21,031 bases of DNA from an uncultured Anaerolineae bacterium (GTDB lineage: Bacteria > Chloroflexota > Anaerolineae > Anaerolineales > Villigracilaceae): assembly GCA_903854805.1 (NCBI GenBank), contig CAINXK010000276.1:1-21031 (forward strand), written 5' to 3'. A program made the translations under genes and the position numbers. Below the pieces are notes generated by a model, which saw nothing but the letters and a program-made list of their open reading frames with translations, was not told the DNA's origin and searched no databases. Below, one piece after another: positions 5,156-13,635 of this stretch; position 1 is the first letter of the stretch; each line of letters begins with the position of its first letter.

Positions 5156-5932
5156 ATGAACGGAATTGAACACCGCTTACAAAAAATATTTGAATTGAAT
5201 CGCCCCTGTATATTGGTGGATACCAGCGCCGGTCTTTCCCTGGGGACATTACCCGGTCTGGAGAATTTCTACATCGCTGTTCGACCTGTTTTGCCACTTG
5301 TAGAAGGAGTTGTGTGCAGTCCCGGTCAAATTGGCAGACTTGAAGCACTCCAGAAAACAGACGCCGCTTTGCTGGTTCGCATGGATTGGAATAATACCTT
5401 GAGGAAGGCGGATTTTGTTTTACCTTCTTCCACTGCCCAACGGGTTTCCATACTCACCCCTCAGGACGCGCTTGATCTGGGTGCGGATGGTATGGTCAGC
5501 ACTTTCTTGCTTGGTTATGATGAAAAAGTTGACGCCGATTGCCTGCGCTCAACGGTCCAGATGGCATTGGAAGGTAAGAAACTGGGTTTGCCGCTCGTGA
5601 TCGAGATCCAGCCCACCGGCAGTCGTGTTTCGCTGCCAGGCAAGGCGGTGGAACTTGGCGCTTCATACGCGCTGGAAGGCGGAGCGGATGGTATTGTCGT
5701 ACCTTATCCCGGAAAAGTGTCACTCAAAACCATCTCCGAGTTTGTCAGCGTTCCCTGGCTGCTGTGCCCTACGAATCTGAACAATGCCATTGCTGAATTA
5801 CAGGAAGCGCTTGATCTGGGCGCAGCCGGACTTTGGTTGGGCCATGAGATTTTTGTTAATCCGACCACACTTCCGGCAATGTTAAAACAATTTAAAACCA
5901 TGGCCAAGCATTTCCCAGAAAGTGTAGGATAA
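5156..5932 (+). CDS. Class I aldolase-like (DeoC/archaeal FBPA/LsrF fold) protein lacking catalytic residues; probable pseudoenzyme
   Basis: This 258-residue protein aligns along its length with the aldolase half of the next gene (for example LVRMDWNN against IVRADWMN, and KKLGLPLVIEIQP against RKVGLPCIMEPLA), so the two are paralogues. Active-site positions known from archaeal class I fructose-bisphosphate aldolases are changed. The Schiff-base lysine, Lys193 of the neighbour in GADALKIPYTG, is Val181 here in GADGIVVPYPG (codon GTC). The DHG motif is Asp22-Thr-Ser. The Tyr of the neighbour's TIY motif is Thr116. The phosphate-binding GG and GRN motifs are Cys204-Pro-Thr and Gly-His-Glu (229-231). 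The frame is intact, with a good ribosome-binding site and a 4-base gap to the active paralogue, so it is expressed rather than decaying. Likely roles are a structural or regulatory partner of the fusion enzyme, or a different lyase chemistry. The fold call is strong; the inactive state is inferred. Confidence 0.8.
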   Translation: MNGIEHRLQKIFELNRPCILVDTSAGLSLGTLPGLENFYIAVRPVLPLVEGVVCSPGQIGRLEALQKTDAALLVRMDWNNTLRKADFVLPSSTAQRVSILTPQDALDLGADGMVSTFLLGYDEKVDADCLRSTVQMALEGKKLGLPLVIEIQPTGSRVSLPGKAVELGASYALEGGADGIVVPYPGKVSLKTISEFVSVPWLLCPTNLNNAIAELQEALDLGAAGLWLGHEIFVNPTTLPAMLKQFKTMAKHFPESVG

Positions 5933-5936
5933 AGCC

Positions 5937-7223
5937 ATGCGCACCGGATTAAACACCCGCATGGAACGTTTATTTAACCGTCATGGCGATGGCCGGGCGG
6001 TGTGCGTCGCCGCCGATCATGGCTACATGAGCGATGTGACTGACAACGTCGTCAAATTGCGTCCGATCACCGAGGCCATTGTTAGCGGCGGCGTTGACGG
6101 CATCCTGGTTAGCCCCGGGCAGGCCATCCGGCTGGCGCCACTATTCCGTGGTAGCGAAGCCCCGGCGCTGATCGTGCGCGCGGACTGGATGAACATGCCG
6201 CGTCTGGGCAGTTCAAATGTACTAAATGCCGTGCCGCAGCGCCACCTGCTGCACCAGAAGGTGCTGACCGCTGAGCAGGCACTTTCCCTGGGCGCGACTG
6301 CCATTACGATCTATCTATTTGTTGGTTATAGCGACGAAGTCGAAGCACAGGGCATCGAGGTCTGTGCGCGTTTTGCCAGCGAATGTCGAAAGGTCGGGCT
6401 GCCGTGCATCATGGAACCGCTGGCAGTCGGTGGACAGGTTACTGGCGCAAACAGCGTGGAGCTGCTCACGCTCGGTGCGCGCATGTGCGTGGAACTGGGC
6501 GCGGATGCGTTGAAAATCCCTTACACAGGTGATGTGGAGAGTTTTGCCAATCTGGTGAAGGTTTCCCAGGTGCCTGTGCTGGTATTGGGTGGCGCCCGCT
6601 CGCCCAGCGACCGTGACGCCCTCGAACTTTTCGCCGAAGGGTTGGATGCTGGCTGTCACGGCTGCCTGATGGGTCGCAATGTGACAAAAGCGCCAGATCC
6701 TGGGCAGCTTATCCGCCAGTTTGGCCTGGTTGCCCATCAGGGATACACGGTAGATGAAGCTCTACGCGGCGAGAAATGGGACAAAGTTCGCCTGCGGGTG
6801 GTGACCAGTAAGTGCACTGGCTGCGAATTGTGCGTCAATGCCTGTGTGGGAGCACATGGTGAGGGCGAGTTCAGCACGCACATGGCGAGGTTAAGCATTG
6901 ATACATTAGGGCTGGGGCAGCACAAAGTGCATTACTGCACCCTTTGTAAAAAATGCATCGATATCTGTCCGACTGGCGCGCTAAGATGGCATCAAACCAG
7001 CGGGGCAGTCGAACTCGTTGCCGAGCAGTGCACCGCTTGCGGGAAATGTGTGGAGATTTGCCCAACAAATGTGATTATGAAGAGTGACGAGAAGGTTGTT
7101 ATTAATGGTACGGAACTGCCCTGGGTTCCTGTGGTTTGCGACCTGTGCAATGGCGACCCGGCCTGCGCCCGCCTCTGTCCAACCGGGGCAATAACTATAG
7201 ATGAAAGGAAGGTGGTCAAATGA
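5937..7223 (+). CDS. Fusion: class I fructose-bisphosphate aldolase-family domain + 4x[4Fe-4S] polyferredoxin
   Basis: This 428-residue protein joins two modules. Residues 1-~275 are a DeoC/archaeal FBPA-type class I aldolase: DHG (27-29), Tyr126 in AITIY, Schiff-base Lys193 in GADALKIPYTGD, phosphate-binding GG (218-219) and GRN (246-248). All key positions are intact, so retro-aldol cleavage of a phosphorylated sugar is expected. Residues ~285-428 carry four cysteine clusters: C293/296/299/303, C334/337/340/344, C365/368/371/375 and C401/404/410/414. This 16-cysteine pattern is that of the electron-transfer subunits of molybdo/tungsto-enzymes (HycB/AorA-like), predicting four [4Fe-4S] clusters. 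The stop overlaps the start of the AOR gene (ATGA, 7220-7223), implying translational coupling. The obvious reading is that the aldolase makes an aldehyde, AOR oxidises it, and this polypeptide takes the electrons. The electron acceptor after it is unknown. Substrate (fructose- or tagatose-bisphosphate-like) is inferred. Confidence 0.9.
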   Translation: MRTGLNTRMERLFNRHGDGRAVCVAADHGYMSDVTDNVVKLRPITEAIVSGGVDGILVSPGQAIRLAPLFRGSEAPALIVRADWMNMPRLGSSNVLNAVPQRHLLHQKVLTAEQALSLGATAITIYLFVGYSDEVEAQGIEVCARFASECRKVGLPCIMEPLAVGGQVTGANSVELLTLGARMCVELGADALKIPYTGDVESFANLVKVSQVPVLVLGGARSPSDRDALELFAEGLDAGCHGCLMGRNVTKAPDPGQLIRQFGLVAHQGYTVDEALRGEKWDKVRLRVVTSKCTGCELCVNACVGAHGEGEFSTHMARLSIDTLGLGQHKVHYCTLCKKCIDICPTGALRWHQTSGAVELVAEQCTACGKCVEICPTNVIMKSDEKVVINGTELPWVPVVCDLCNGDPACARLCPTGAITIDERKVVK

Positions 7224-9049
7224 ACCCGGCTGAATGCGGATACTGTAACCGAGTGCTGCGCGTCGATTTGAGCAGCGGCAAGACTTCTGTGGAACCCCTG
7301 CCGGAAGGTGCCTTGCGCCTGTTATTGGGAGGCAAGGGCCTGGGCGCGTACTATCTGTATCGTGAGTTAAAACCTGGCACTGACCCACTTGGCCCCGAAA
7401 ATATGCTCATCCTGCATACCGGTCCTCTGACTGGCACCACTGCTCCAACCGCCGGGCGCTTTGGCTCGACCACCAAAAGTCCCGCGACTGGCACGTATTC
7501 CGACTCATACTGCGGTGGTTTCTTTGGCCAGACCCTGAAATATGCCGGTTATGACCTGGCGATCTTCAGCGGCGCAGCCTCCGAACCGGTGATGGTGGTG
7601 ATCGATAACGACAAAGTCGAAATCCGCCCGGCCACGTACTTGTGGGGCAGGACCATCCCGGAAGCAGACGCCGCCATAAAGGTTGAGTTCGGACCTGGCT
7701 GGCAATCGTTGGTGATCGGTCCCCCTGGCGAAAAAATGAGTAATATTGCCAGCATTTTCAATGAGACTCGCGCCCTAGCGCGGGGCGGTGTGGGTGCGGT
7801 GATGGGTTCCAAAAAAATCAAGGCCATCGTTGCGCGCGGAACCGGCTCCGTTCATGTTGCCGATCGCCAGGCATTCGATCGCGCCAACCAGCTAGCGCAT
7901 CGCGCCGTACGCATGTCCAGCAGCATCAGCCGCATGAAGGTCGAAGGAACTGCTAATATTTTGGAATTCATCAATGTCGGTGGCGCTTTGCCGACACGCA
8001 ACTTTCAGCAAGGGCAGTTTGAAGGCGCGGATGAGATCAGCGGTGCTGCCTGGCGCGAAAAATCCTGGAAGCGCGACTACGCCTGTTTTGGCTGCCCGAT
8101 CAATTGTTCCAAGGTGACCAAAGAACTGGATGGCAAGGTGTTGGAAGGCCCGGAATTCGAGACCATCTATGCCGTGGGTTCCAATTGCGCCATTGCAGAC
8201 CAGGATACGATCATTCGCCTGTCGCTGCTGTGCGATGAATATGGCATCGATACGATCAGCGCCGGCGCAATCATTGCGCATGTAATGGAGATGTTTGAAA
8301 AAGGCATGATTTCGGCGGACGAGCTGGATGGAATCCAGCCTCGTTTTGGTGATTGCGCGGCAGCGCTGGCCTTGATGGAAAAAATGGCAAAAGTTGAAGG
8401 CTGTGGAGTCTGGCTTAGCCAGGGTGTTGCTGCCATCGCAGAACGTTATCCGCAGTCGAAGCCCTTCGCCATGCAGGTCAAGGGTCTGGAGATGCCGGCC
8501 TATCATCCAAACGCAGCCAAGGGCATGGCGCTTGGCTATGCCATCTCGGAACGCGGAGCATGCCACCTGCGCGGCGCACCCCTGACGGAAGTCTTTGGCG
8601 GCGCTGACCCGTTGATTACCAAAGGCAAGGCGCGCCTGTTTCGCGATCACCAGGCGGATTCGGCCTTGTGGAATAGCGCTACCTTATGTTACTTCCCAAG
8701 TTTTGGCATGAGTCTGAAGGAGTTATGTCAGCTGGTGAACGCCGCTACGGGGTTCAATTATGCAACGGTACATGAATTTGAGACGGTTGGCGAACGCATC
8801 AGCACCCTGTGCCGGCTGTTCAATGTGCGTGAGGGTTTCGCGCGCGCCCAGGATACCCTGCCCGCTCGCAACCTGTCCCAGCCAATGCCCGATGGTCCGG
8901 CAAGGGGCCAGGTAGTGGAACTCGACGTGATGCTGGATGAATACTATGCTCTGATGGGCTGGGATAAAAATGGCCTGCCGGATGCAAAAACACTGGCAGC
9001 CCTGGGTTTGGAAACCCTGTTGGCGTACCCAGGTGCGGGCACATTGTAG
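7220..9049 (+). CDS. Tungsten-dependent aldehyde:ferredoxin oxidoreductase (AOR family)
   Basis: This 609-residue protein is full length for the family. Enzymes of this family oxidise aldehydes to carboxylic acids using a bis-pterin tungsten (or molybdenum) cofactor and one [4Fe-4S] cluster. The N-terminal AOR_N pattern is clear (RVLRVDLSSGK, then LLGGKGLGAYYLYREL, then SYCGGFFGQTLKYAGYD). The cluster motif is C289-x2-C292-x3-C296, with Cys490 as the likely fourth ligand. The pterin motif DxxGLD appears as D339-EYGI-D344. The second one, normally DxxGLC, is N485-SATL-C490, so two consensus positions differ. Glu314 and His449 (RGACH) match the catalytic acid/base residues. The C-terminus has CRLFNVREGF. 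It overlaps the fusion gene by 4 bases, so the fused polyferredoxin is probably its dedicated redox partner. A GAP-oxidising role as in archaeal GAPOR is one possibility; the aldehyde is not determinable here. Confidence 0.93.
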   Translation: MNPAECGYCNRVLRVDLSSGKTSVEPLPEGALRLLLGGKGLGAYYLYRELKPGTDPLGPENMLILHTGPLTGTTAPTAGRFGSTTKSPATGTYSDSYCGGFFGQTLKYAGYDLAIFSGAASEPVMVVIDNDKVEIRPATYLWGRTIPEADAAIKVEFGPGWQSLVIGPPGEKMSNIASIFNETRALARGGVGAVMGSKKIKAIVARGTGSVHVADRQAFDRANQLAHRAVRMSSSISRMKVEGTANILEFINVGGALPTRNFQQGQFEGADEISGAAWREKSWKRDYACFGCPINCSKVTKELDGKVLEGPEFETIYAVGSNCAIADQDTIIRLSLLCDEYGIDTISAGAIIAHVMEMFEKGMISADELDGIQPRFGDCAAALALMEKMAKVEGCGVWLSQGVAAIAERYPQSKPFAMQVKGLEMPAYHPNAAKGMALGYAISERGACHLRGAPLTEVFGGADPLITKGKARLFRDHQADSALWNSATLCYFPSFGMSLKELCQLVNAATGFNYATVHEFETVGERISTLCRLFNVREGFARAQDTLPARNLSQPMPDGPARGQVVELDVMLDEYYALMGWDKNGLPDAKTLAALGLETLLAYPGAGTL

Positions 9050-9058
9050 GAGGTAGAT

Positions 9059-10105
9059 ATGATCGAGCTTTGGGGAAAAGACTATACCCGTGAAGAGCTC
9101 TTGCGGCGCGTGGGAGATATGCGCCAGGTCGCGGGCGTGGAGCCGTTTGAACTGACAGATGGCAGCCAGCGCGGAGTGCGTGCTGTGCGCCTGTGGAATG
9201 CCGCAGGGTTGAATTTTACTGTTGCGGCAGAACGCGGCATGTCGCTTACCAATCTTACCTGGCGCGGCGTGCCTATCCCGTTTCTCAGCGCCGTAGGTAC
9301 TGTACACCCTGCTTATTATGAGCCCGAAGGACTGGGCTGGCTGCGAACCTGGCCGGTTGGCTTCCTGACTCCCTGTGGTTTGACCCAGGCAGGTGCTCCC
9401 TGTAGCGATGATGGTGAACAGCTTGGACTGCACGGACGCGTAGCGCATATCCCAGCTCAGAATATACACTGGGGAGCCGAGTGGCGGGGTGAAGAATATT
9501 ATTTATGGGTCGAAGCCGATGTGCGCGAGACAGCTGTGTTTGGTGCAAACCTGCTTTTACATAGGCGAATATCAACCACATTGACTTCCCCCACTTTGTG
9601 GATCGAAGATCGAATTGAGAACCAGGGGTTTTCAGCCAGTCCGCATTTATTTATGCAGCATATCAACATTGGCCACCCATTGATCGACAGCACCACAAGC
9701 CTGGATCTACCCGAACGAATCACAGTCCCCAGTGACGAAAACGCGCGCCTCGGGCTGGAACAGTGCTGTTCGTTTGGCGAACCGCTCATTGGGTGCGAAG
9801 AACAAGTCTTTTTCCATGAGTTGACTCCAGATGATGATGGAAATGTGGAAGTGCGGTTGGTTAATCCTGCTTTTGCCAATGGCGCTGGTCTAGGTATGTG
9901 CTTACGTTATGCTTTGAAGGCATATCCGGTGTTGACCGAGTGGAAAATGATGCGGGAAGGGTTGTATGTGGTGGGTGTGGAACCGGGCAACTGCCGTTCA
10001 CTAGGGCGCGCTCGTATCCGCGAGAATGGCGACCTGCCCATACTTGGTCCGGGTGAAACGCGTAACTACCATCTGGAAATTACCTTTTTTACCAATCAGG
10101 GCTGA
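9059..10105 (+). CDS. DUF4432 / aldose 1-epimerase-like protein
   Basis: This 348-residue protein starts at an ATG with a very strong ribosome-binding site (AGGAGGT, 9048-9054) that overlaps the stop of the AOR gene. It belongs to the galactose-mutarotase superfamily: VRLWNAAGLNFTVAAERGMSL near the N-terminus, GFLTPCGLTQAG around 100-112, the typical LGLHGRVAHIPA (121-132), and MQHINIGHPLID with HxNxGxP spacing around 198-209. Members of DUF4432 are predicted to interconvert anomers or bind sugar substrates in carbohydrate catabolic operons, but few have been tested. No signal peptide is seen, so it acts in the cytoplasm, probably on a sugar released by the nearby glycosidases. The family call is firm; the enzyme activity is inferred. 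Confidence 0.85.
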   Translation: MIELWGKDYTREELLRRVGDMRQVAGVEPFELTDGSQRGVRAVRLWNAAGLNFTVAAERGMSLTNLTWRGVPIPFLSAVGTVHPAYYEPEGLGWLRTWPVGFLTPCGLTQAGAPCSDDGEQLGLHGRVAHIPAQNIHWGAEWRGEEYYLWVEADVRETAVFGANLLLHRRISTTLTSPTLWIEDRIENQGFSASPHLFMQHINIGHPLIDSTTSLDLPERITVPSDENARLGLEQCCSFGEPLIGCEEQVFFHELTPDDDGNVEVRLVNPAFANGAGLGMCLRYALKAYPVLTEWKMMREGLYVVGVEPGNCRSLGRARIRENGDLPILGPGETRNYHLEITFFTNQG

Positions 10106-10110
10106 TCAAT

Positions 10111-11304
10111 ATGCGCGTCATTGTGGCCGGACACATCTGTTTGGATATTATTCCTCAAATTGCTGCTGCGGATCAGGATAACTTTTTTGCGCGCCTTCAG
10201 CCCGGTCACTTGATTGAAGTCGGAGCCGCGGCCATGTCAACCGGAGGCCCAGTTTCGAATACCGGTCTGGCGCTGCACAAGCTGGGTATCCCCACTCATC
10301 TGATGGGCAAAGTAGGCGCGGACCGGTTTGGCGTGATCGTTCGTGATATTGTCAGCGAGATTGCCCCCGAATTGGCTCAGGGCATGATCATCGATCCAGC
10401 ATCAAACACATCCTATTCGCTGATCATCAGCCCGCCTGGCACCGACCGGATCTTTTTGCATAGTCCAGGCGCCAACCACACCTTTTGCGCGGATGATGTT
10501 GACTATTCAGAAGTTGCGAAAGCAGATTTATTTCACTTTGGTTACCCACCGCTGATGCAGCGGATGTACGAGAATAACGGCACAGAACTGGTCGAAATAT
10601 TCAAACGTGTCAAAACGCTGGGTGTTTTAACCTCGCTTGACATGGCTTTTCCAGATCCCGCCTCTCCGGCTGGCAAAGTCGATTGGCGCGTTATTTTTCA
10701 GGCTGTATTGCCTCATGTTGATATCTTCCTGCCAAGCATTGAAGAATTGCTGCTGTGCCTTAACCGCCCCTTATACGATCAATTGGAAGGGCAGGATGGC
10801 AAACTATTGGAGCGTGTAACGCCTGAGCTGCTCAGCGCGCTCAGCAGCGAATTACTTGAAATGGGCGTCAAGATCGTGGTCTTGAAGCTGGGTGAGCGCG
10901 GTTTGTATTTGCGTACAGCTTCTGAAAATGTTTTAAGCCAATGTGGGCATGGAGTTGACCCGGCAGCATGGAGCTGCCGTGAGATTTGGTCGCCCTGCTT
11001 TTATGTGCAGGTGGTAGGCACCACCGGATCGGGAGATGCCACGATTGCTGGGTTCCTGGGGAGCTTGCTGCGCGGGTTAGCTCCTTCTCAAGCGATGACG
11101 ATGGCTGTTGCTGTAGGTGCCTGCAATGTTGAAGCAGCGGATGCATTAAGCGGTATTCGCTCATGGAATGAAACCCAAAAACGGCTCCAGGCAGGTTGGA
11201 CCAGGCGCCAACTTACGTTGAATAACACGAGATGGAACTGGGATCCGGAAACACAACTCTATTACGGCCCTGGGATGTTTGCTGATGTCTCGGAAAAAAC
11301 ATGA
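10111..11304 (+). CDS. PfkB-family carbohydrate kinase
   Basis: This 397-residue protein begins VIVAGHICLDIIP and carries both PfkB signatures: STGGPVSNTGLALHKLG followed by GKVGADRFG (43-74), and GTTGSGDATIAGF with the catalytic Asp309 in the GSGD anion hole. The usual motif is GAGD, so one Ala is Ser. It is longer than the typical ~310-340 residues because of an insertion around 210-300 that contains a Cys-containing stretch (SCREIW), and a C-terminal extension of ~35 residues. It starts 5 bases after the epimerase-like gene with only a weak ribosome-binding site, so it is probably translationally coupled. PfkB kinases phosphorylate sugars, sugar phosphates or ketodeoxy acids with ATP. Here the product may feed the aldolase domain encoded upstream, which is inference. 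Confidence 0.88.
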   Translation: MRVIVAGHICLDIIPQIAAADQDNFFARLQPGHLIEVGAAAMSTGGPVSNTGLALHKLGIPTHLMGKVGADRFGVIVRDIVSEIAPELAQGMIIDPASNTSYSLIISPPGTDRIFLHSPGANHTFCADDVDYSEVAKADLFHFGYPPLMQRMYENNGTELVEIFKRVKTLGVLTSLDMAFPDPASPAGKVDWRVIFQAVLPHVDIFLPSIEELLLCLNRPLYDQLEGQDGKLLERVTPELLSALSSELLEMGVKIVVLKLGERGLYLRTASENVLSQCGHGVDPAAWSCREIWSPCFYVQVVGTTGSGDATIAGFLGSLLRGLAPSQAMTMAVAVGACNVEAADALSGIRSWNETQKRLQAGWTRRQLTLNNTRWNWDPETQLYYGPGMFADVSEKT

Positions 11305-12301: not shown

Positions 12302-12307
12302 AAATTG

Positions 12308-13635
12308 ATGCCCAAATTAACATCGCAAGAAATCGTAGCTATGAATCGCGAATACACATTTTTCTCGTGGTCTGTTCAGAACCAGGTAAATCCCATCCCG
12401 GTGGAAAAAGCCCAGGGTGTTTATTTTTGGGATACAGATGGGAAACGTTACCTCGATTTTTCATCACAATTGATGAATACCAATATCGGCCACCAGCATC
12501 CTAAGGTGGTCAAGGCCATTCAGGATCAGGCTGAAAAGCTTTGCTTTGTCCATCCGGGAAATGCCACAGATGTGCGCGGCCTGTTGGGGAAGAAACTTGC
12601 CGAGTTGACTCCGGGTGATCTGAAAAAGGCTTTTTTTGCCCTGGGGGGCTCGGAAGCCAATGAGAACGCGATCAAGATCGCCCGTTTCTATACGGGGCGT
12701 CATAAAATCCTGGCGCGCTACCGTTCCTATCATGGCGCCACCCACGGTTCCATCGCGTTGACCGGCGATTATCGTCGCCTGGCTGTTGAACCGGCCATGC
12801 CCGGCGGAGTGCATTTTCTTGATCCGTTTTGTTACCGCTGTCCATTCGGACAGAAACCGGAAACCTGTAAGCGCGAATGTATTTCGCATCTTGAAGAAGT
12901 TATCAAGTATGAGGGGCCTGACAAAATTGCCGCCATTATTATGGAAGGTGTGGTGGGTTCCAATGGCCTGATCGTACCGCCGGATGATTATTGGCCAAGA
13001 GTCCGTGAAATTTGCGATAAATACGGCATCCTGCTAATTTCAGATGAAGTCATGAGCGGGTGGGGTCGCACGGGTAAGTGGTTCGCTGTGGATAACTGGG
13101 GTGTGACTCCGGATATTATCACCACCGCTAAAGGTATCACCAGTGGGTATGTGCCGCTTGGAGCGGTAATTGTCTCGGAGAAGATCGCCAGATTCTTTGA
13201 TGACAAATATTTGTATGCGGGACTCACCTACAATGTGGTCATGCCCTGGCTTGCGCAGCAGCCCTGGCAACGATCGACGTATACGAAGAAGAGAACTTGC
13301 TTGAGAACGCAACCATCCTGGGCAAGTACCTGGGCCAGGCGCTCGATGAAATCAAGAAGCAACACGCCTCGGTGGGTGATGTACGCTATATTGGTTTATT
13401 TTCAACTATCGAATTGGTGGCTAATCGCGAGACAAAGGAAATTATGCCAGCATCCGTAATGGCCGAAGTAGGCAAAACCCTGCGTCAGAATGGGCTATTT
13501 ACCTTCATTATGGCGAATAACATGGGCAGCATGTTGTTTGTGGTTCCGCCGCTGTGTATTACGCAGGCCCAGTTGGACGAAGGTCTGGCTGTTGTGGAAA
13601 AAGCGCTGGAAGTCGCTGACAAAAAGGTTAAATAA
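12308..13635 (+). pseudogene. Class III (PLP-dependent) aminotransferase, interrupted by a frameshift at about 13232-13239
   Basis: The first 309 residues read as a normal class III aminotransferase: GVYFWDTDGKRYLDF (38-52), FFALGGSEANENAIKIAR (109-126), YHGATHGS (141-148), IMEGVVGSNG, SDEVMSGWGRTG with cofactor-binding Asp246, and TTAKGITSGYVPLGA with PLP Lys275. After GLTYN (codon 13232-13234) the frame fails. The expected continuation GHALACAAALATIDVYEEENLLENA is read in another frame from 13237 and runs to a stop at 13633-13635. Two extra bases (or one missing) explain it; the family's TYSGH pattern favours a two-base insertion in AATGTGGTCAT. Repaired, the protein would be 441 residues, normal for the family. 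No other lesion is visible, so it is either a very recent mutation or an assembly error. It resembles omega-amino acid/taurine:pyruvate-type transaminases and precedes a semialdehyde dehydrogenase, suggesting amine-to-semialdehyde conversion. Confidence 0.85.

Follow-up and report, generated by a model that had tools for sequence, protein, structure and literature searches.

A putative electron subunit of a tungsten oxidoreductase fused to a class I aldolase in a conserved gene cassette of uncultured Anaerolineae

Why should a class I aldolase carry an iron-sulfur (Fe-S) tail and be encoded directly upstream of an aldehyde:ferredoxin oxidoreductase (AOR)? The question is raised by a contig of an uncultured Anaerolineae bacterium (GenBank accession no. 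CAINXK010000276.1; the whole stretch of 21,031 nt is here called the window, and coordinates count from its first letter), in which a single open frame encodes both parts of the fusion protein (Table 1). Judged from sequence comparison, the fusion cassette appears to be a real and conserved variant of the Class II tungsten oxidoreductases (WORs), of which no description was found in the literature searched. We consider it rather probable that the cassette encodes a Class II-type pair of large (WorL) and small (WorS) subunits, in which WorS is fused to an apparently active aldolase and accompanied by a dedicated dead aldolase paralogue, and that these parts form one redox complex.

The N-terminal part of the fusion matches the Pfam DeoC/LacD aldolase family over residues 22 to 250 (79.9 bits; cut-off, 23.8) and is followed by Fer4-type domains. 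The tail holds 16 cysteines in four [4Fe-4S] motifs (C293/296/299/303, C334/337/340/344, C365/368/371/375, and C401/404/410/414). An initial annotation of this DNA had described a class I aldolase and a 16-cysteine, four-cluster tail in one frame, overlapped for 4 bases by the AOR gene. The Pfam matches, the cysteine positions, and the homologue alignment described below bear out the former, and the ATGA shared by the two frames (7220 to 7223) bears out the latter. In a predicted model of the whole fusion, the tail blocks have predicted local distance difference test (pLDDT) values of 81 to 95; a fold search with this model listed aldolases alone and thereby does not assess the tail. The tail predicted alone, from 12 sequences, was too poor (mean pLDDT, 48.3) and was not used.

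A protein search with the window fusion gave 534 homologues at an E value of ≤1e-30, the best 120 of which were taken, and a second search from the divergent fusion of locus L014 contributed the best 120 of 513 homologues; in both searches, scoring was limited to the candidates with most words in common. Taken together, the two lists comprise 223 different proteins, so that 224 sequences were aligned with the window fusion included. Homologue names are source labels, and not all of them are credible (one reads Mycobacterium leprae). Lys193, Tyr126, and Arg247 are each invariant in the 224 aligned sequences, and Asp27 and His28 are retained in all 221 rows that have a residue there (3 gaps). 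Thirteen of the 16 tail cysteines are likewise invariant (224/224), while C410 and C414 occur in 223 sequences and C368 in 213. Because both the catalytic residues and the cluster cysteines are conserved over 224 sequences, the fusion is not the result of chance or misassembly; on this alignment, we take it to be real and conserved. The second cysteine of motif 3, residue 368 (codon 7038 to 7040), is a His in 9 of the 224 homologues, which suggests that some of them have a three-iron cluster or one with a His ligand. Some homologues from the L014 search carry KSB1, Calditrichaeota, and Chloroflexia names, and those named KSB1 or Calditrichaeota suggest that the fusion reaches beyond Chloroflexota.

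Among solved structures, the tail matches AorA (8c0z_C; phmmer E value, 4e-14) over residues 11 to 146 of a 153-residue piece, and it also matches the WOR5 small subunits 6x6u_B and 6x1o_B, with 9mqx_E ranking lower; a profile search agrees. The polyferredoxins MvhB and 9sfi_O outscore the AOR small subunits by summing repeated segments, and other ferredoxin subunits lie between. Since longer polyferredoxins score higher, the assignment relies on alignment length and company, not on rank alone. As it aligns along its length with the AOR small subunits 8c0z and 6x6u, the tail is, by this comparison, a WorS-type electron subunit. Class II WORs consist of WorL and a four-cluster WorS and use ferredoxin, as described in the accessible text of PMC13328260, and the present cassette encodes a four-[4Fe-4S] WorS together with WorL in the form of a fused domain. 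At 27 paralogous AOR loci (L063 to L089), a pattern-based search of short flanks detected an Fe-S-like open reading frame (ORF) beside 4 (L070, L075, L086, and L088) and none beside the remaining 23. The free-standing small-subunit-like proteins of L070 and L088 have 158 and 163 amino acids and show 35% and 32% identity, respectively, to the tail. The alignment with AorA runs to residue 421 of 428 in the fusion and to residue 167 of 192 in AorA, leaving 7 and 25 residues, respectively, beyond the aligned part. According to the accessible text of PMC10413684, the C-terminal helix of AorA makes filaments, and the AorA cluster FS1 lies 11.9 Å from the AorB cluster. With only 7 residues beyond the AorA-aligned part, AorA-style filaments are not expected for the fusion, and the part of organising the complex may instead fall to the aldolase barrel and the degenerate paralogue.

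The AOR gene is intact, and its product belongs to the AOR family, with 241.8 bits for AFOR_N (cut-off, 29.8) and 416.3 bits for AFOR_C (cut-off, 27). Its best match in the PDB is Pyrococcus furiosus AOR (PfAOR, 1aor) at 452 bits, compared with 391 bits for AorB of Aromatoleum aromaticum and 219 bits for WOR5. In the alignment with 1aor, the four cluster cysteines (289, 292, 296, and 490) are matched, and Thr244, Glu314, Tyr428, and His449 correspond to Thr243, Glu313, Tyr427, and His448 of PfAOR, which the accessible text of PMC13328260 names especially for aldehyde-oxidising members. All eight residues are retained in 12 of 12 cassette AORs. Bacterial GOR conserves the same four key residues (PMC12096430, accessible text), and they therefore cannot separate the cassette AOR from GOR. 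In a FastTree tree, the cassette AORs group in one clade (local support, 1.0) that excludes 26 paralogues. This clade consists of the window AOR and 11 others that are 65 to 69% identical to it; the tree left out L004 and L014 (both partial) and L076, and L012 had no AOR to enter. An AOR is found at an E value of ≤1e-100 in 224 of 396 genomes of the class; among the matches listed, AORs more than 45% identical to that of the window occur only in 3 fusion-carrying genomes of the 396, in a survey that took no more than 3 or 4 candidates from each genome and may have missed some.

The gene order is tight. A scan of genome contigs yielded 28 loci, of which L001 to L014 are fusions from Anaerolineae/Chloroflexota metagenome-assembled genomes; L015 to L028 match only within residues 197 to 427, chiefly the Fe-S part, and a comparison with the window proteins detected no AOR there at an E value of ≤1e-5. 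The AOR gene lies directly 3' of the fusion in 13 of the 14 fusion loci, at a spacing of -4 to +20 bases, the exception being L012, where the contig ends inside the fusion. The fused architecture thus travels with AOR, and the case that the initial annotation had named as a refutation, in which homologues with the tail mostly lack such a neighbour, is not borne out. Three of the 13 downstream AORs are incomplete: that of L004 hits a second run of N, that of L008 reaches the contig end, and that of L014 reads in pieces. An aldolase paralogue precedes the fusion, again directly, in 13 of 14 loci; in the remaining one (L004), the fusion is flanked by 100 consecutive N, which probably mark a scaffold gap. 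In the window paralogue, Val replaces the Schiff-base Lys, the DeoC score (22.2 bits) falls under the cut-off of 23.8, and PRK07226 is matched with an E value of 8e-19 (68 of 241 bits). The Schiff-base Lys is absent in 120 of 120 homologues of this protein (best 120 of 701; V in 87, A in 16, I in 16, and T in 1), and in the same set Asp27 is replaced by Ser and Tyr126 by Thr, Ser, or Ala. The upstream paralogue therefore looks like a pseudoenzyme that has lost its catalytic residues.

The fusion is present in 3 of 396 genomes sampled from the class and in 1/147, 5/18, 3/38, 1/7, and 1/2 genomes of five families (centre genomes included). With the divergent L014 fusion as query, a search across the phylum found it in 1 of 400 genomes, which was the centre genome, and viral contigs yielded no relatives. 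This patchy distribution fits a cassette that moved sideways or was often lost, and not a core pathway.

How close is the aldolase domain to known enzymes? It is a class I, DhnA-type aldolase, with a TIM barrel, a Schiff-base Lys, and a catalytic Asp. Lys193 aligns with Lys177 and Asp27-His28 with Asp24-His25 of the Thermoproteus tenax fructose-1,6-bisphosphate (FBP) aldolase 1ojx (numbers counted by hand on the alignment). Tyr126, which the initial annotation had also listed as catalytic, aligns with Thr112 of 1ojx and with a His of MJ0400; it is not the classical catalytic tyrosine, and the assignment is corrected in this point. The classical one is Tyr146 of 1ojx. Because Leu162 and Glu160 of the fusion replace Tyr146 and Trp144, respectively, the active site appears near, but not identical to, that of archaeal FBP aldolase. 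The solved structure nearest to the domain is the ADH synthase MJ0400. The fusion scores 123.8 bits against a cut-off of 430 for the NCBIfam archaeal FBP aldolase model, 136 against 299.45 for the ADH synthase equivalog, and 170.7 against 241 for PRK07226, and it stays below the cut-off of all five aldolase models among the NCBIfam matches listed (best 25 of 71 families). It also differs from the DhnA family members 1ojx, MJ0400, and LsrF in an insertion around residues 82 to 89, which they lack. Unfused Anaerolineae DhnA aldolases are 36 to 40% identical to the fusion aldolase and are without an Fe-S tail, and neither an AOR nor a pseudo-aldolase was detected near them in the 3.4- to 3.8-kb loci searched. 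Since they have in common with it an EP motif (Glu160) and a YxFxGY motif (from Tyr126), the fusion aldolase and these relatives look like a subfamily of their own.

The cassette invites comparison with known systems of the AOR type. Like the Class II WORs (WOR5/ASOR of P. furiosus and GOR of Caldicellulosiruptor bescii), it has an AOR large subunit and a four-[4Fe-4S] small subunit; unlike them, it carries the small subunit behind an aldolase, with a pseudo-aldolase gene before it, and its large subunit is nearer to PfAOR than to WOR5. The filament-forming Class III system AorABC of A. aromaticum supplies, with AorA and next to the WOR5 subunit, the best single-stretch match to the tail. However, the FAD/NAD subunit AorC, which Class III encodes together with AorAB, had no counterpart in a Pfam scan of window genes, and the fusion differs from AorA by its short C-terminus after the last cluster and by the aldolase at its N-terminus. 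The same scan of the window gave no flavin (WorN) subunit. The initial annotation had contrasted the fused Fe-S subunit with AORs that use a free ferredoxin or a separate small Fe-S subunit. A small subunit borne on an aldolase does set this system apart, whereas separate four-cluster AOR subunits are an already established class (accessible text of PMC13328260), and the novelty consequently lies in the fusion and the degenerate paralogue. A literature search of titles and abstract openings of open-licence papers returned no description of an aldolase fused to an AOR small subunit, and the word “aldolase” is absent from the main text of PMC13328260. According to the accessible text of the same paper, only five of 92 tungsten oxidoreductase clades have a member whose physiological role is known. 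In the present case, an electron subunit is covalently tied to a possible aldehyde-producing enzyme, so that candidate substrates can be sought among the aldehydes that a defined aldolase subfamily sets free, and the conserved pseudo-aldolase gains a testable role. If our reading is true, the cassette would provide Chloroflexota, most of them uncultured, with a new route of ferredoxin reduction when they break down sugars.

Sequence comparison establishes the domains, the conserved residues, the close linkage of the three genes, and an AOR clade specific to the cassette; the mechanism that we propose goes further. Pseudo-aldolase, fusion, and AOR would assemble as one complex, in which the aldolase domain, which probably shares a ring with the pseudo-aldolase, would cleave a phosphorylated ketose via Lys193. 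The aldehyde released would be converted to the acid at the tungsten site of AOR, and electrons would leave the AOR cluster for ferredoxin by way of the four clusters of the fusion. The neighbouring genes at some loci speak for a catabolic role, and the substrate may vary between operons. We more tentatively put forward, as a possibility, that a ring of live and dead aldolases bears the AORs on fused electron arms, so that the aldehyde, once split off a ketose phosphate, passes straight to the tungsten site and its electrons are handed to ferredoxin within the same complex; if true, such an aldolase-ferredoxin machine would already conserve energy when the sugar is split, ahead of GAPDH or in its stead. 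Several observations weigh against the proposed redox complex. The AOR of L014 is in pieces although its fusion is intact, and the predicted model of the fusion is of low confidence around the active site (residues 29 to 34 and 89 to 100). The eight conserved AOR residues are also kept in nearly all of the 26 paralogues and thus show competence, not a special substrate. No PfkB kinase was found next to the fusion in L001 to L014, and no recognisable sugar genes were seen by eye near L007, L011, L013, and L014. Moreover, the operon in L002 (and, by eye, in L001) has both a class II aldolase and an FGGY kinase of its own, and a second cleaving aldolase therefore looks redundant there.

DhnA aldolases form large rings. 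It is conceivable, if unlikely, that the barrel and the pseudo-aldolase mainly oligomerise AOR and its clusters into such a ring and that the reactions are not sequential; the retention of the degenerate paralogue in 13 of 14 loci and the scant counterpart of the AorA filament helix in the fusion would agree with this, but a scaffold has no need for the strict conservation of Lys193, Arg247, and Tyr126, or of Asp27 and His28. The pathway could also run backwards, with reduced ferredoxin driving an acid-to-aldehyde reduction at AOR and the aldolase condensing the product with a phosphorylated ketone donor. MJ0400, the nearest solved relative, works in the condensing direction. AORs can reduce acids when given low-potential donors (accessible text of PMC9295118). 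Around the cassette, both the window and L002 nevertheless carry genes of catabolic appearance (alpha-galactosidases, an isomerase, and kinases), and we judge the reverse direction very unlikely.

What, then, is the aldehyde? The initial annotation had raised glyceraldehyde-3-phosphate and thereby a ferredoxin-linked glycolytic shortcut. On such a route, the aldolase would split FBP, and AOR would act directly on the glyceraldehyde-3-phosphate. A bacterial precedent exists in C. bescii GOR, a WorLS enzyme that oxidises this compound (accessible text of PMC13328260), the phosphate-site residue Arg247 is conserved, and of 11 genomes with the fusion, only 4 gave a class II FBP aldolase (PF01116, the only type counted, in genomes whose completeness is not given), which leaves some room for a role of the fusion in FBP cleavage. 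On the other side, GAPDH is present in 10 of these 11 genomes, the fusion falls far short of the FBP aldolase model and has Leu162 and Glu160 at the Tyr146 and Trp144 positions, and the AOR reaches only 39 of the 1300 bits required by the archaeal GAPOR model (NCBIfam GAPOR_Arch). In addition, the unfused aldolase relatives pair with a PfkB kinase, and so patchy a spread is ill-suited to a core pathway. Glyceraldehyde-3-phosphate is therefore possible but not favoured, and the shortcut is distinctly unlikely.

Table 1. Positions of the cassette genes, their domains, and the adjoining downstream genes in the window
Feature	Coordinates	Strand	Remarks
Putative pseudo-aldolase, DhnA-family paralogue	5156..5932	+	258 aa from ATG 5156 (ORF caller: TTG 5141)
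Aldolase-polyferredoxin fusion	5937..7223	+	428 aa
Class I (Schiff-base) aldolase domain, residues 1-280	5937..6776	+	Lys193, Asp27, His28, Glu160, Tyr126, Arg247
WorS/AorA-like domain, four cysteine motifs, residues 284-428	6786..7220	+	phmmer and profile search
Aldehyde:ferredoxin oxidoreductase large subunit (WorL)	7220..9049	+	609 aa; AFOR_N, AFOR_C; best PDB match 1aor
DUF4432 protein, possible accessory	9059..10105	+	PF14486, 300.5 bits; also beside the cassette in L002
PfkB sugar kinase, possible partner upstream of the aldolase chemistry	10111..11304	+	PfkB, 100.6 bits

The unfused aldolase adjoins a PfkB kinase, 47 to 53% identical to that of the window, in 10 of 10 loci (L037 to L046), which represent 10 of the 18 genomes of one Chloroflexota family; in L052, xylose-isomerase-like and FGGY genes lie beside such a pair. 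At an E value of ≤1e-40, the 18 genomes divide into 5 with the fusion, 10 with the unfused relative, 3 with neither, and none with both. In the five genomes with the fusion, the kinase is located elsewhere in 3 and has no match at an E value of ≤1e-20 in 2; the stretches fetched around these 3 kinases contain no aldolase match. Because the unfused genes pair with the kinase and the fused genomes keep it elsewhere or lack a match, the fusion may have taken the place of the unfused aldolase downstream of the PfkB kinase. The order of chemistry is likely kinase, aldolase, and then AOR. PfkB as an obligate member of the cassette was considered and rejected, given that none was seen next to the fusion in L001 to L014 and that two of the five fused genomes gave no match.

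Other neighbourhoods differ. In L002 (and similarly, by eye, in L001), the class II aldolase and FGGY kinase are joined by an L-fucose-isomerase-like protein. L006 encodes LarA and TauE/SafE family proteins (Pfam), and L009 and L010 are similar by eye. A TauE/SafE permease gene directly follows AOR in these three loci, and TauE-like genes do so in L003 and L005 as well (by eye). Lactate-racemase and UPF0261 genes occur in L006, L009, and L010 (checked with Pfam in L006 and for one gene of L009, otherwise by eye), as do creatininase-like genes in L006 and L010 and a PEP-hydrolase-like gene in L009. The neighbours in L006, L009, and L010 may form an uncharacterised hydroxy-acid pathway, and one could speculate from LarA that a 2-hydroxy acid such as lactate is the product. 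Sulfoquinovose degradation by sulfoglycolysis, considered on account of GH31 and TauE/SafE genes, was rejected, as the product of the GH31 gene resembles alpha-galactosidases (468 bits to 8j50, compared with only 77 for YihQ).

In the window, the cassette belongs to a run of same-strand, mostly catabolic genes (837 to 21031). The run is headed by a 683-residue protein (837 to 2888) that has no Pfam match at an E value of ≤0.001 and looks glycosidase-barrel-like by eye. It includes genes for the GH31 alpha-galactosidase-like protein, a His phosphatase, the DUF4432 and PfkB proteins, a PIG-L protein, an aminotransferase, and a CoA-acylating methylmalonate-semialdehyde dehydrogenase (534 bits; cut-off, 448.5), as well as GH27-like, MGH1-like, Gfo/Idh, and GH20 genes. 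The aminotransferase (class III, 12305 to 13635) is apparently split by a frameshift: the Aminotran_3 match of the 384-residue frame stops after residue 299, and the overlapping frame at 13297 to 13635 appears by eye to be its C-terminus.

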